DNA from: Methanosarcina mazei S-6
GTDB taxonomy: Archaea > Halobacteriota > Methanosarcinia > Methanosarcinales > Methanosarcinaceae
Direction: 5' to 3'
Assembly (NCBI RefSeq): GCF_000970205.1
Contig: NZ_CP009512.1
Location: 4,030,001 to 4,094,000 of the forward strand
DNA: 64,000 nt
A program made the position numbers and the translations under genes. Positions 54,627 through 62,829 of the stretch are shown here, one piece after another. The notes below the pieces were generated by a model, which saw only the letters and a list, made by a program, of their open reading frames with translations, was not told the origin of the DNA and searched no databases. Each line of letters opens with the position of its first letter. Within the stretch, counting starts at the first letter, position 1.

Positions 54627-55616
54627 TTGAGAAAATCAAGCATACTTATACTTGCTTTACTGCTGATCGCATCTATCTTCGTATCTGGCTGTGCTGATAA
54701 TGAAGATGAAATTACTGAACTGAACATCGGCTACCAGCCGAGTACGCATCAGATTGCATATATGACTGCCTATGAGAAAGGGTGGTGGCAGGAAGATCTT
54801 GCACCTTACGGGATCACAAAAATAAATGAATATCAGTTTCCTACAGGCGCTCCGGAAATGCAGGCTATGATGGCTGGAAACCTGGATGTAGCTTATGTTG
54901 GAGCAGCCCCTGCTATTACAGCCCTCAGCCAGGGTCTCGATGCAAAGATTGTTGCACCTGTACAGATAAATGGTTCAAGCATTGTTCTCAGGCCTGAGCA
55001 CGAGTATGAAAGCCCTGAAGACCTGAAAGGGCTCAGTATTGCTACCTTCCCGCCAGGAACAATCCAGGACACCCTGATCAGAGACTGGCTTAAGGATAAC
55101 GGGCTTAATCCTGAGACAGATGTAAAAATTCTTGGGATGGCTCCGGGAGATGCTGTCACCGCTATTTCAGCCAAACAGGTCGATGCTGTCTTCCTGCCAC
55201 ATCCCTCACCTTCTGTAATCGAAGCTGAAGGCAATGGGCGTACGGTTGTACAATCTGGAGAGATGAGTCCGAACCATGCCTGCTGTGTGCTTCTTATTAG
55301 CGGAAAACTTATCAGAGATCACCCTGATGTCGTGGAACAGATTGTAAAGACCCACATTAAGGCAACCGAATATAATCAAGAAAATCAGGATGAAGCTGCC
55401 CAGATCTACTCAAACAAAACCACAGAGAATGTAGAAGTTATAAAGAAATCTCTTGAGGAATGGGATGGAGCCTGGATAACAGACCCTGAACTGATTAAAA
55501 ATTCAACTGTCGAATATGCAAATATCCAGTATGAACTTAATTACACCCAGAAGCCTCTGACAGAAGAAGAAATATTTGACACAAGTTTCTACGAAAAAGC
55601 AGAAAATGAAGAATAA
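54627..55616 (+). CDS. ABC transporter substrate-binding lipoprotein (TauA/SsuA/NMT1 type)
   Basis: The 329-aa protein has a lipoprotein signal (ILALLLIASIFVSGC, with Cys near residue 22). Its periplasmic-binding fold contains IGYQPSTHQIAYMTAYEKGWW, MQAMMAGNLDVAYVGAAPAI, GLSIATFPPGTIQDTL and AKQVDAVFLPHPSPSVI. This fits the nitrate/sulfonate/taurine or thiamine-precursor binders. It sits outside the membrane and hands the ligand to the permease encoded next. The substrate cannot be read from sequence; a sulfonate such as taurine or coenzyme M precursors, or a pyrimidine, are reasonable. The start is TTG at 54627 with GAGGTG a few bases upstream. A hairpin terminator follows, which may raise its expression over the others. 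Confidence 0.88.
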   Translation: MRKSSILILALLLIASIFVSGCADNEDEITELNIGYQPSTHQIAYMTAYEKGWWQEDLAPYGITKINEYQFPTGAPEMQAMMAGNLDVAYVGAAPAITALSQGLDAKIVAPVQINGSSIVLRPEHEYESPEDLKGLSIATFPPGTIQDTLIRDWLKDNGLNPETDVKILGMAPGDAVTAISAKQVDAVFLPHPSPSVIEAEGNGRTVVQSGEMSPNHACCVLLISGKLIRDHPDVVEQIVKTHIKATEYNQENQDEAAQIYSNKTTENVEVIKKSLEEWDGAWITDPELIKNSTVEYANIQYELNYTQKPLTEEEIFDTSFYEKAENEE

Positions 55617-55684
55617 AAGAAGAAATAGAACAGATAAAGTGAAAAGTAAAAGGAACAATTAAATAAATTATTGAATATGTTAAG

Positions 55685-55714
55685 CTGCCCCAAATATAAA
55701 AGGGGCAGTTTTGA
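55685..55714 (+). terminator. Partial terminator between binding protein and permease
   Basis: CTGCCCC (55685-55691) pairs with GGGGCAG (55702-55708), followed by TTTTG. It lies 69 bp after the binding-protein gene and 74 bp before the permease. Such a hairpin could give more binding protein than permease. Confidence 0.6.
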
Positions 55715-55781
55715 ACTTTAACCATCCTGAAAACAGAAAACTGCCGGAAAGATAAAAAACTAAGAATCCTTTTAATAAGAC

Positions 55782-56570
55782 ATGAAAATTAATTTCATAA
55801 AAACAATCGAAGAAAAAGGCATTGAAGCATTATCTCTTGTAATCGCGGTTGCCATATGGCAGCTTGTAGCGGATAGAATTGTACAGAACAAACTGCTTCT
55901 GCCAAGTTTTTATGATGTGGTAAACTCTTTTACCGTGATTGTTAAAAATGGACTAATTTATACGGATACCCTGACAAGTTTACTCCATTTCTCAATTGGT
56001 ATTGCAGCTGCTTTTATACTTGGTATTCCTCTTGGAATAATCATGGGGTGGTTTAAAACGGCAAACAGGGCAATCGACCCTATAATAGAAATCCTGCGTC
56101 CGATCCCTCCTCTTGCCTGGATCCCTTTTGCAATAGTATGGTTCGGGCTCACACATCAGGCAGCAGGTTTCGTTGTGTTTGCAGGGATGATCTTCCCAAT
56201 AATTATTAATACCTACACTGGTTTTAAGAACGTTCCACGAGTCTATATTGAGGCAGCAAAGGTTCTTGGCTGTACACGTAATATAGACCTCATCCGCTAT
56301 ATTGCGATCCCTTCAGCTATGCCTTCGATTGCTGCAGGGATAAGGATTGCAATGGGTGTAGGCTGGATGTGCCTTGTAGCAGCAGAGATGTTTGGAGTAA
56401 GCAATAGAGGGCTTGGTTACCAGATATGGCACAATTATTACCTGCACAGAATGGATTTCGTGCTTGTATATATGCTCCTGCTGGGGTTCATAGGTCTTTT
56501 CATAGACCGTTTCTTCAGATACTATGTAGATGAAAAGCTTCTCAGATGGAAGTCAGGGACTGTGATGTAA
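55782..56570 (+). CDS. ABC transporter permease (TauC/SsuC type)
   Basis: The 262-aa protein has six membrane helices and a BPD-type ABC permease loop, seen in EAAKVLGCTRNIDLIRYIAIPSAMPSIAAGIRIAMGVGWM. It forms the membrane channel of the importer. It resembles SsuC/TauC (sulfonate or taurine) and ThiX permeases. A possible ATG start at 55782 lacks a strong ribosome site. The ATPase gene starts two bases after its stop, so the two are translationally coupled. Confidence 0.88.
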   Translation: MKINFIKTIEEKGIEALSLVIAVAIWQLVADRIVQNKLLLPSFYDVVNSFTVIVKNGLIYTDTLTSLLHFSIGIAAAFILGIPLGIIMGWFKTANRAIDPIIEILRPIPPLAWIPFAIVWFGLTHQAAGFVVFAGMIFPIIINTYTGFKNVPRVYIEAAKVLGCTRNIDLIRYIAIPSAMPSIAAGIRIAMGVGWMCLVAAEMFGVSNRGLGYQIWHNYYLHRMDFVLVYMLLLGFIGLFIDRFFRYYVDEKLLRWKSGTVM

Positions 56571-56572
56571 AA

Positions 56573-57337
56573 ATGGGTAGAGTAAGTGTAAAAAACGTTT
56601 CACGCATCTTCACCAAAAAAGAAGATGGGTCCGGAACCGAAGCTCTGCATAATATAAGTTTTGATGTGCAGGATGGAGAGTTTATCTGCCTCCTCGGGCC
56701 TTCAGGCTGCGGGAAGACAACACTGCTTAGAATAACTGCAGGTCTTGAGACCCTTACCTCAGGAGAAATCACACTCAATGGAGTTCCCATAACAGGTCCT
56801 GACCCAAAAAGAGGTATGGTTTTCCAGCAATACTCTCTGTTTCCCTGGAGAACCGTTATAGACAATATTACTTTTGGTCTGGAAATGCAGGGAATTGATA
56901 AGACCAGAGCTCGAAAACAGGTTGAAAAATACCTGGAACTTGTAGGCCTGGAGCAGTTTAAAAACAGCTATCCTCATGAGCTGTCAGGAGGCATGCAGCA
57001 GAGAGCTGCCATTGCAAGAGCCCTTGCTAACGAGCCTGAGGTGCTCCTCATGGACGAACCCTTTGGAGCTCTTGACGCTCAGACCCGGAACGTACTTCAG
57101 GACGAGCTCCTGAAGATATGGGAACAAAAACATGTAACATTCCTTTTTGTAACTCACAGCGTGGACGAAGCTGTAGTCCTCTCTGACAGAATAATAGTTA
57201 TGACTTCAAGGCCGGGAAGGATAAAGGAAATCGTAAAAGTGGAAATACCCCGCCCTAGAAGCCGAACCAGTCCGGAAGTAAACCGCCTGAGGGATCACAT
57301 CCTCAAACTTCTGGAAGAAGAAAGGTTTACCAGGTAA
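56573..57337 (+). CDS. ABC transporter ATP-binding protein (TauB/SsuB type)
   Basis: The 254-aa protein carries Walker A GPSGCGKTT, the Q-loop FQQYSLFPW, signature LSGGMQQRAAIARAL, Walker B VLLMDEPFGALD and the H-loop in THSVDEAV. It drives the importer. The ATG at 56573 lies just after the permease stop; an in-frame ATG at 56546 overlaps the permease end and is less likely because it adds residues with no similarity. No strong ribosome site was seen, fitting translational coupling. Confidence 0.9.
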   Translation: MGRVSVKNVSRIFTKKEDGSGTEALHNISFDVQDGEFICLLGPSGCGKTTLLRITAGLETLTSGEITLNGVPITGPDPKRGMVFQQYSLFPWRTVIDNITFGLEMQGIDKTRARKQVEKYLELVGLEQFKNSYPHELSGGMQQRAAIARALANEPEVLLMDEPFGALDAQTRNVLQDELLKIWEQKHVTFLFVTHSVDEAVVLSDRIIVMTSRPGRIKEIVKVEIPRPRSRTSPEVNRLRDHILKLLEEERFTR

Positions 57338-58155: not shown

Positions 58156-58362
58156 TTATTCAACAAGGCTGGCAAAACCGTATTTGGGGAGTACCCTTTC
58201 GATTTTGATCCTTACTTCGTCGCCTACTTTGGTGCCCGGGACAAAGATTACAAAACCCTCTATGCGGGCAATGCCGTCTCCCTGGCGAGCGAGGTCCTGA
58301 ATTGTAACGTCGTAAACTTCGCCTTCTTCAACAGGAACAGAGCCACTTTCTTCTCTGAACAT
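58156..58362 (-). CDS. Single-domain TRAM protein, copy 1 of 4
   Basis: The 68-aa protein is a TRAM domain: MFREESGSVPVEEGEVYDVT, then IQDLARQGDGIARIEGFVIF and IERVLPKYGFASLVE. TRAM domains bind RNA; single-TRAM proteins of methanogens have been linked to cold response and RNA chaperoning. In all four genes the pattern AAAGGAATGGTTTTCATG shows a ribosome site nine bases before the second ATG, so the start is MFREE rather than MVFMFREE. This copy is the most diverged at the C-terminus and the last in the transcript direction. It may be expressed with the other three. Confidence 0.88.
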   Translation of the reverse strand: MFREESGSVPVEEGEVYDVTIQDLARQGDGIARIEGFVIFVPGTKVGDEVRIKIERVLPKYGFASLVE

Positions 58363-58423
58363 GAAAACCATTCCTTTAATCAGGTTAAAACTTGGTATAA
58401 CCAGGTGTTTTCTCAACCCAAAC

Positions 58424-58630
58424 TTACTCGACAACGCTTGCAAATGCAAACTTGGGAAGTACTCTTTCGACTTTAATGCGAACTTCATCGCCTACTTTAG
58501 TGCCCGGGACAAAGATTACAAACCCTTCTATGCGAGCAATGCCATCTCCCTGGCGAGCAATATCCTGAATTGTAACATCGTAGACTTCGCCCTCTTCGAC
58601 AGGGACTGAGCGACTTTCTTCTCTGAACAT
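58424..58630 (-). CDS. Single-domain TRAM protein, copy 2 of 4
   Basis: The 68-aa TRAM protein starts MFREESRSVPVEEGEVYDVT. It shares VIFVPGTKVGDEVR with copy 1, while its C-terminus (VERVLPKFAFASVVE) matches copies 3 and 4, so it looks like an intermediate. Starts of neighbouring copies are 268 and 271 bp apart. The ribosome site AAAGGA precedes the ATG at 58630 by nine bases. A separate gap of about 60 bp lies between genes, enough for individual promoters. Confidence 0.88.
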   Translation of the reverse strand: MFREESRSVPVEEGEVYDVTIQDIARQGDGIARIEGFVIFVPGTKVGDEVRIKVERVLPKFAFASVVE

Positions 58631-60513: not shown

Positions 60514-61548
60514 TTAAAGATTTTCCCTGAAATTTTTGATACCCTGTGCGACGTTTGAAAGCAGGATAAAAGCTATTCTCTGGTTAGGCCATGAACCCAG
60601 GCCGCAGTCAGGACCCACATATTTGATCAGACTGCCAAAACGCCTGTATGCCAGCTTCAACCTTTTTTCAATAACTTCCGGAGTTTCCAGCTGCGAAACG
60701 ATTTCAGGGATATATTGCTGATCTTTCCAGATGTTGGTACAGTATTTCTCATTGAGAATTCCAGCAAGGGAAAAAATATCCGTTCTTGCAATTCCAATCC
60801 TCAGGAAAGAATCGGTGTCTTCAAGCATCTTTTTGTCAATAAGCTCAAGGTAAGAAGGAGTGCCTGCAGACTCAACGCCTATTACATTGATTGTGGTGGT
60901 CTCACAGGCATAATTGTAATAAAGAGGGGAATGAAGATGGATCTCCACGTCAGCTCCCCATTTGCTTGCAGCCTTAGAAGCTTCTGTAAGGGCGGAGATA
61001 ACATCGTTTTCATCAAAGGCAAGTTCAGGATTGAGTCCTATGCTTGGCTCGTCAATTGAAACCGTTGCGATCTTAAAGTGTTTTGCAGATTTCATCGAGT
61101 TCCGGACAAACCTGTTTATGCTCTTTGCAAAAAGAGTGTATATATCCGTATACCTGGTGCCTCCGAACTCTTTCAGGTAAAGTTCGGTTGGGCCGGTCAC
61201 ACAGATACGGACCTTTAAGGTCTCCCCGAATTTTTCTTTATAAGCTTTTGCTACCGTCTCTATAGCCTCAAGCTCTTCAATCCTTGCGCATTCCAGTTTT
61301 ACCTCAAAGGGACTGTCTGTACAGTTAGAATCCCGGATAACCTTCAGGAACTGCTCGTTCATGTCCTGATACTGGGGATAGGTAGGAACTTCTACGCCTG
61401 CATCGATTTTCTGCTGAAAAGCATCATTGATTACAGTAAAAAGTTTCTCATCTTCTGCTCTCGTTTTAAAGGCATTCTGCACCCATTCCCTGCTAACTCC
61501 TTCAGGGAGTGGATAGCTTCCTATATCATCAAAGATGATTTCTTTCAT
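60514..61548 (-). CDS. MetE C-terminal-like (core methionine synthase family) protein 1
   Basis: The 344-aa protein matches the barrel of cobalamin-independent methionine synthase. It has an N-terminal DDIGSYPLPEGVSREWV, the IDEPSIGLNPELAFD stretch, and zinc-site segments HLHSP (H204, H206), NVIGVES (E226) and GPDCGLGSW (C315). Canonical MetE uses His-Cys-Glu-Cys; here the first Cys is His. Members of the short 'core MetE' family take methyl groups from methylated corrinoids or proteins. Methionine synthesis or methyl transfer is likely, but the reaction is uncertain. It is the downstream one of two paralogues read leftward. Confidence 0.8.
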   Translation of the reverse strand: MKEIIFDDIGSYPLPEGVSREWVQNAFKTRAEDEKLFTVINDAFQQKIDAGVEVPTYPQYQDMNEQFLKVIRDSNCTDSPFEVKLECARIEELEAIETVAKAYKEKFGETLKVRICVTGPTELYLKEFGGTRYTDIYTLFAKSINRFVRNSMKSAKHFKIATVSIDEPSIGLNPELAFDENDVISALTEASKAASKWGADVEIHLHSPLYYNYACETTTINVIGVESAGTPSYLELIDKKMLEDTDSFLRIGIARTDIFSLAGILNEKYCTNIWKDQQYIPEIVSQLETPEVIEKRLKLAYRRFGSLIKYVGPDCGLGSWPNQRIAFILLSNVAQGIKNFRENL

Positions 61549-61689
61549 GCTCTCTAGTATACCTGTAAGAATTTATTATTATTGGAAAGACAGTAAAATT
61601 ATAAAATAACAGATGAGAAATACTATGAGAATATCTTCTCAAAGGAGAACAATTCATCTGTTTATCCGTTGATTTTTTTCGAGTTGCCC

Positions 61690-61795
61690 CCCCTTCCGGA
61701 GTTATTCATCTACCCGGGCTGTTAATTTGCCTGAATTGTCCATTTTCCGGAGTTGTTCATTTACCTGGATTGTAACTTTCCGGAGCTATTAGAGG
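61690..61795. repeat. 33-bp degenerate tandem repeat, 3 copies
   Basis: Units starting TTCCGGAGTT(A/G)TTCAT at 61695 and 61751, and a shorter third one (TTTCCGGAGCTATTA) at about 61781, lie in the 240-bp gap between the two MetE-like genes and overlap the stop of the second. An additional ACC(C/T)GG(G/A)(C/T)TGT element lies in each of the first two units. Confidence 0.65.
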
Positions 61796-62829
61796 TCTTT
61801 CATCTCTGCATTAAATGCATTGATGCCTTTTGCCGTATTTTCAAGCAATCTGAAAGCAAGCTCCTGGTCCGGCCAGAATGCTAGCCCGCAGTCAGGACTT
61901 GCGTATTTTATACGGTCCCCAAGAATAGAGCAGGCTTTTTCAAGCCTTTTTTGTATTATATCAGGAGTTTCAAGTTCCGTGACGATTTTTTGCATATATT
62001 CTTTTTCTTTCCAGGCGTTAACTCCATAGGTCTCGTTAACCATGCCTATGAGGCTTGAAATATCAGTCCGTGAGACCCCGAGCCTTATATAAGTATTCGA
62101 ATCTTCCAGAATTTTTTTGTCCATAAGGTCTATATAAGAAGGAGTTGCAGCGTATTCAAACCCCATAACGTTGATAGGGGTCTCGCAAATGAGTTTGTAC
62201 TTTAAAGGAGAGTGCAGGTGGATCTCCACATCAGCCCCCTGTTTCCGCGCGTAAGTGGAAGCCAGAGTAAGGGCAGAAACAATATCTAAGTCAGAAAACT
62301 GAATTTTATCGTTCATTCCAAGGCTTGGTTCATCCAGGGCGATAACCTTAATTTTGAAGTTTTTCGCAGCTTTAAACGCCTGCTTTATGAAGTTCTCAAT
62401 ATTCAGAGCCATGATATGGTATGCATCTGAGAAAGCCGTTGCCCCGAAAGCCTGAAGGTAAAGGTCAGTTGGACCGGCAACACAAACTCTAACCTCCAGA
62501 GTCTTGCCTGTCCTTTCTCTGTACTGTTTTGCAACCTCATCAATTATCTCCAGCTCAAGGATTTTTGCGTTCTCTTCTTTTAAGACGTAGGGCTCATAAC
62601 AGTTTTTCTCATCTCTGATAATGTCAAGAAACTGTCCTATCATATCTCTAAACTGCGGATAAGTGGGAACATGAACTCCAGCGTCTATTTTTCTCTGAAA
62701 AGCGTCACTTACCAGAGAAAAGAGTTTTTGGTCCTCAGTTCGGCTCTCGGCTGCAGCTTTCACCCATTCCCTCGTAAAACCTTCAGGTGTTGGGAGACTG
62801 CCTCCATCGATAAAAATGATCTCCTGCAT
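61789..62829 (-). CDS. MetE C-terminal-like (core methionine synthase family) protein 2
   Basis: The 346-aa paralogue starts MQEIIFIDGGSLPTPEGFTREWV and has LDEPSLGMNDKIQF. It has the same zinc-site variant as its neighbour: HLHSP (H204, H206), NVMGFEYA (E225) and SPDCGLAFW (C314). The two share most blocks and probably came from a tandem duplication, though they have diverged by about half their residues by eye. Two copies suggest separate methyl donors or acceptors. Its ATG is at 62829. No separate promoter element was identified in the gap. Confidence 0.8.
   Translation of the reverse strand: MQEIIFIDGGSLPTPEGFTREWVKAAAESRTEDQKLFSLVSDAFQRKIDAGVHVPTYPQFRDMIGQFLDIIRDEKNCYEPYVLKEENAKILELEIIDEVAKQYRERTGKTLEVRVCVAGPTDLYLQAFGATAFSDAYHIMALNIENFIKQAFKAAKNFKIKVIALDEPSLGMNDKIQFSDLDIVSALTLASTYARKQGADVEIHLHSPLKYKLICETPINVMGFEYAATPSYIDLMDKKILEDSNTYIRLGVSRTDISSLIGMVNETYGVNAWKEKEYMQKIVTELETPDIIQKRLEKACSILGDRIKYASPDCGLAFWPDQELAFRLLENTAKGINAFNAEMKDL

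Follow-up and report, generated by a model that had tools for sequence, protein, structure and literature searches.

The gene pair

The window, a 64,000-nucleotide stretch of the Methanosarcina mazei S-6 genome (4.14 Mb, a single contig), contains two related genes on the minus strand. The first, at 60514..61548, encodes a core MetE-like protein of 344 amino acids and is mesC of class A, the ancestral copy. The second, at 61789..62829, is mesC of class B, a duplicate on a long branch, and encodes 346 amino acids. Class B lies upstream of class A on the same strand, with an intergenic gap of 240 bases (61549..61788, minus strand). The two proteins are 54% identical. Class A starts with FDDIGSYPLP, which matches the single copies of other genera, and class B is marked by the stretches FIDGGSLPTP, GFEYAA and YASPDCGLAF.

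Both proteins match NCBIfam model NF004712 (PRK06052, 'methionine synthase') above its cut-off of 387, with 606.6 bits for class A and 598.3 bits for class B. The named control above this cut-off is Methanosarcina acetivorans. No Pfam model matches either protein at E<=0.001. Judged by sequence, the pair belongs to MesC, a family of folate-domain-free ('core') methionine synthases found in the Methanosarcinales and relatives. A first-pass annotation of this DNA had proposed placing the pair in a tree of the MetE and core-MetE families. In such a tree MesC is one clade, with support 100, apart from the MesA/MetE side.

Among the 29 genomes with a fetched B copy, 28 have B and A as neighbours. 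The exception is G007, of the genus Methanosarcina, where a metF-metV-pterin-binding gene cluster precedes class B (locus L070, G007:C39:1-5300) on the same strand, about 0.46 kb upstream of it. A linkage of class B to metF was rejected, as it occurs in this single genome.

The surroundings hold other features. A few kb from the pair, at 54627-57337, is an SsuA-type sulfonate ABC transporter, with binding protein, permease and ATPase. A tandem of four small TRAM-domain-like frames lies on the minus strand (window 58156-58488 and L013:160-1202); relatives have these too. Just beyond the end of the window, a PYLIS_5 element (L013:7705-7804) sits beside a transposase-like frame (L013:7998-8855). 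At the gathering threshold, Rfam finds only tRNA and PYLIS_5 on loci L012 and L013, and nothing at the mesC genes.

Putative zinc and homocysteine residues

Each protein carries an HLH motif (H204, L205, H206), at 60931..60939 in copy A and at 62212..62220 in copy B. The putative zinc ligands of copy A are H204, H206, E226 (60871..60873) and C315 (60604..60606), the last within a PDCGL motif. In copy B the putative glutamate and cysteine ligands are E225 (62155..62157) and C314 (61888..61890, again in PDCGL). All of these positions are on the minus strand. Both copies also have S11, Q59 and D166, which correspond in the alignment to the residues that bind homocysteine through its amino and carboxyl groups.

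Conservation was assessed on 125 distinct sequences from fetched loci, which represent a part of the 181 MesC genomes of the phylum. Two of these sequences are fragments of one broken gene (L071), and were excluded from the counts and from the tree (n = 123). The pattern His-His-Glu-Cys (HHEC) is present in 110/110 full-length sequences: 30/30 in class A, 29/29 in class B and 51/51 among single copies. It is therefore not a matter of chance. A third class, C, has HYEC in 13/13. S11, Q59 and D166 are unchanged in every class wherever they are readable, including 29/29 for B and 13/13 for C. Two rows were trimmed before the serine column by the choice of start, and their upstream frame shows the serine.

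Where exactly H206 stands relative to MetE depends on the alignment. In all four MAFFT modes (4/4), H206 falls on Cys643 of E. coli MetE, and the other ligands fall on His641, Glu665 and Cys726. The column facing H206 contains 25 Cys and 4 His among 29 sequences. Profile alignment with hhalign agrees with this register when MesC is set against MesA (99.2%), or against MesA plus further PF01717 proteins (99.8%). Against the 12 further PF01717 proteins alone, however, hhalign (99.4%) puts H206 on the zinc histidine and E226 on an aspartate, and a HMMER alignment to 1u1h likewise pairs H206 with the zinc histidine. Because these two alignments disagree, it is likely rather than proven that H206 occupies the MetE cysteine position. 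The alignments used 44 MesC, 17 MesA and 12 further PF01717 proteins; the latter two sets come from 17/20 MesA loci and 12/23 PF01717 loci, the remainder being wrong-frame or MesA again.

On this likely register, both copies have the MesC residues, with histidine at the Cys643 position and the equivalents of His641, Glu665 and Cys726. This agrees with the first-pass annotation, which held that both paralogues have HLH in place of HxC and keep the Glu and the last Cys. Its view that this marks a distinct class and not a mutation also stands. The class already had a name, MesC (PMC7857596). The HxH zinc site by itself is thus an expected and already published trait of the family.

His-x-His in MesA-like proteins

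HxH is also found in another branch. Four MesA-like proteins of family f6 (L162, L163, L165, L166) have His-Pro-His, with Glu and Cys kept. The His-Pro-His loci are L162, L163, L165, L166 and L176-L181, from peat-bog archaeal MAGs; among named genomes, six such loci turned up, all in MAGs titled bog, fen or SPRUCE. Like MesC, these proteins have an IGVE.A stretch and keep Glu and Cys alongside HxH, but in the tree they group with MesA/MetE. HxH therefore either arose twice or predates the split.

The same peat-bog genomes have a second, more diverged MetE-like protein (L169:2916-3920, L171:2638-3642, L174:1834-2838). By eye, its gene adjoins an apparent methenyl-H4MPT cyclohydrolase gene.

Fold

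Copy A was modelled with AlphaFold2 from a 44-sequence alignment, giving a pLDDT of 94.5 and a pTM of 0.92. In structure the model comes closest to the B12-independent methionine synthase 3rpd (Z 28.6) and to the C-terminal half of MetE, 1xdj (Z 28.1). MetE and MesD structures span Z 22.9-28.6. Next come the M. mazei methyltransferase structures 4ay7/4ay8 (Z 21.4-21.8) and UROD (about 21). The model was also compared using Foldseek. A sequence-profile search gave 1u1h as its sole match, at E 5.2e-4.

The proteins are not MetE itself, which has two barrels, an N-terminal half that binds folate, and HxC...E...C: at 344 and 346 amino acids they have the length of a single barrel, they have HxH, and the genome has no PF01717 match. 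Nor do they show the traits of the coenzyme M methyltransferases (MtaA/MtbA), a UROD-family sequence and an HxC...C zinc site: no Pfam model matches, HxH comes with Glu, and the structural match is weaker than that to MetE.

Classes A, B and C

In the tree of the 123 sequences, which was made with a quick method, class A groups with the single copies. Classes B and C together share a branch of 0.59 changes per column, with support 100, and C is nested inside B with support 99. Of the three classes, A is ancestral; B arose as a lineage-specific duplicate, and C branched off from B. Median dN/dS within the classes is 0.066 for A, 0.067 for B and 0.122 for C. From this last value it follows that class C is still constrained, by purifying selection.

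M. mazei S-6 has three MesC copies. The third, of class C, is located outside the window at C1:1002710-1003723, within L012:8705-9748 (C1:1002704-1003747); in it His-Val-Tyr replaces HLH and Arg250 has become Gly. Within the window's genus, 10/23 genomes have class C and G091 has a broken copy; in genus g11 the class is present in 3/4. Its location differs between genomes. In G091 (L071, G091:C549) the gene is split by stops into two fragments.

The M. mazei S-6 class C gene is directly downstream of the cobalt-transport genes cbiM, cbiQ and cbiO. Membership of a cobalt-transport operon is a weak proposition for the class, as cbiMQO is beside class C in 4/13 loci only. The distance from cbiO to mesC is about 1 kb in three of these four. 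For 7 of the other 9 loci, no cbi genes were found upstream in a flank of at least 3.8 kb; L066 and L067 had shorter flanks.

An alternative reading is that classes B and C are no longer ordinary methionine synthases. They could use another donor protein or thiol, leaving A alone as the housekeeping enzyme. Besides the long branch and the cbi genes, fixed changes among the sequence neighbours of active-site residues would fit this: I9 to G or E, S227Y and G318A in both classes, with H206Y and R250G in class C alone (13/13). Against it, S11, Q59 and D166 are intact in both classes, as is HHEC in all of class B, and the cbi neighbourhood is common to just four genomes. We place this explanation on the unlikely side. 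Because the homocysteine residues are kept, any divergence of B and C would more likely concern the donor protein or regulation than the acceptor.

A more specific idea concerns class C. It might be an enzyme in its own right, with His-Tyr-Glu-Cys at the metal site and without a conserved arginine, maintained by selection, passed between Methanosarcina lineages and having a role under special conditions, for example cobalt shortage. Taken with the HxH of the peat-bog MesA-like proteins, the second zinc ligand of core methionine synthases would then be freely exchangeable. If true, class C would work in making methionine, or in transfer from another corrinoid. This idea is doubtful.

Distribution and genome content

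NF004712 matches are found in 98/100 Methanosarcinaceae genomes, and in 181/392 genomes of the phylum. When 100 genomes were compared for MesC and for MesA/MetE-type proteins (NF002119, E<=1e-40), 48 had MesC only, 49 had the other only, none had both, and three had neither. These three are G139, G162 and G163, of which G139 does have a PF01717 match.

The M. mazei S-6 genome has no PF01717 match at E<=10, no MesA match over the cut-off, and no match to PF02574, the MetH homocysteine domain, at E<=1. MesC is therefore the only detectable methionine synthase there. PF03599 matches this genome four times, twice in full and twice in part (CdhE-like). Wood-Ljungdahl CdhD/CdhE is thus present in a host where no other methionine synthase was detected.

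Across the phylum, CdhD (PF03599, E<=1e-40) is found in 176/181 genomes with MesC, versus 70/211 of those without. Fisher's test gives p 3e-45, a value not corrected for relatedness. The five MesC genomes without CdhD are G025 (listed as 99% complete), G200, G298, G325 and G343; here, parts may be missing from the assembly. A literature search on strains without CdhDE returned nothing useful.

Proposed reaction

Family, fold, conserved residues, the lack of other detected synthases, the mutual exclusion with MesA/MetE and the co-occurrence with CdhD are all computed. We infer zinc, homocysteine as the substrate, and the identity of the methyl donor. H204, H206, E226 or E225, and C315 or C314 would coordinate zinc inside a barrel of the MetE type. 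Homocysteine would bind the zinc as a thiolate, placed by S11, Q59 and D166. Methyl transfer to the thiolate from a methylated corrinoid protein would then produce methionine; the likeliest such protein is CdhDE, the corrinoid iron-sulfur protein. That MesC acts as a corrinoid-dependent methionine synthase we put at roughly 80%. For CdhDE as its main methyl donor we have a mild preference.

The methyl group in Methanosarcina might also come from methyl-tetrahydrofolate, either directly or via a corrinoid protein other than CdhDE. Methyl-THF could feed the reaction in the Methanosarcinaceae, because methylene-THF reductase (PF02219) is encoded by all 82 of the 82 high-quality genomes of the family, and by 96/100 overall. 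M. mazei S-6 carries an apparent purN-glyA-folD-folP-metV-metF cluster, in which metF, metV and folP were named through Pfam matches of their counterparts in a relative, and purN, glyA and folD by eye. G007 has class B close downstream of metF, as noted above; it is the only compared genome with metF beside mesC. Outside the Methanosarcinaceae, however, 12 of 25 chosen MesC genomes have PF02219, with none among the 8 tested from f8 or the 3 tested from f5. Since MesC genomes without PF02219 exist, methyl-THF is rejected as a general donor. The folate half found at the N-terminus of MetE is also absent from MesC proteins. For Methanosarcina itself we regard this donor as quite improbable.

That the pair are coenzyme M methyltransferases is highly improbable: 4ay7/4ay8 do match the fold, but MetE and MesD are closer, the residues for the homocysteine amino and carboxyl groups are conserved, MesC occurs in f8 genomes as well, separate HxC UROD-like proteins recognised by eye in the genome fit coenzyme M methylation, and no alternative methionine synthase was detected. 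Coenzyme M as the acceptor is thus disfavoured by both residues and gene content.

The first-pass annotation had suggested that the altered ligand set might tune donor or acceptor, perhaps towards a corrinoid or towards another thiol such as coenzyme M. The corrinoid half of that suggestion fits the CdhD co-occurrence and a prediction by Price et al. (PMC7857596), and the coenzyme M half is not supported. As a whole, that interpretation is partly supported. MesC appears to be the sole methionine synthase of a major methanogen group. The comparison of classes makes further tests possible, such as the effect of His, Tyr or Cys as second ligand on rate or donor, and why there are two or three copies.

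Comparison with known systems

MesA shares the zinc and homocysteine residues with MesC, save for the cysteine of HxC. It differs in having HxC rather than HxH, in forming a separate clade (support 100), and in never co-occurring with MesC in 100 genomes.

MesB, the core-MetE of Dehalococcoides, uses methylcobalamin in vitro, with CoFeSP as its proposed donor (Deobald et al. 2020, PMC7005905). Like MesC it is a core enzyme without the folate half. By that paper's description it is set apart by HxC, and by Asp in place of Glu (PMC7005905). A 2025 paper mentions core-MetE in passing (PMC12478193).

MesC itself was defined by Price, Deutschbauer and Arkin in 2021, with MA_0053 (UniProt Q8TUL3) as type protein (PMC7857596). 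In the MesC passages of that paper, most MesC proteins have His instead of Cys643, Methanosarcina has two or three copies of which two are near each other, and a corrinoid donor is predicted. No enzyme assay of MesC was found in the open literature searched. The ligand numbers given there, 204/206/225/314, are those of copy B, and those passages show no difference from the window genes.

The tyrosine variant is noted by Price et al. in two Methanosarcina proteins (PMC7857596); here 13 full-length sequences with this residue form a clade, and each of them also has R250G. Beyond those passages, the present analysis adds the A, B and C classes, a class C with His-x-Tyr and Arg250Gly under purifying selection, and HxH in peat-bog MesA-like proteins.
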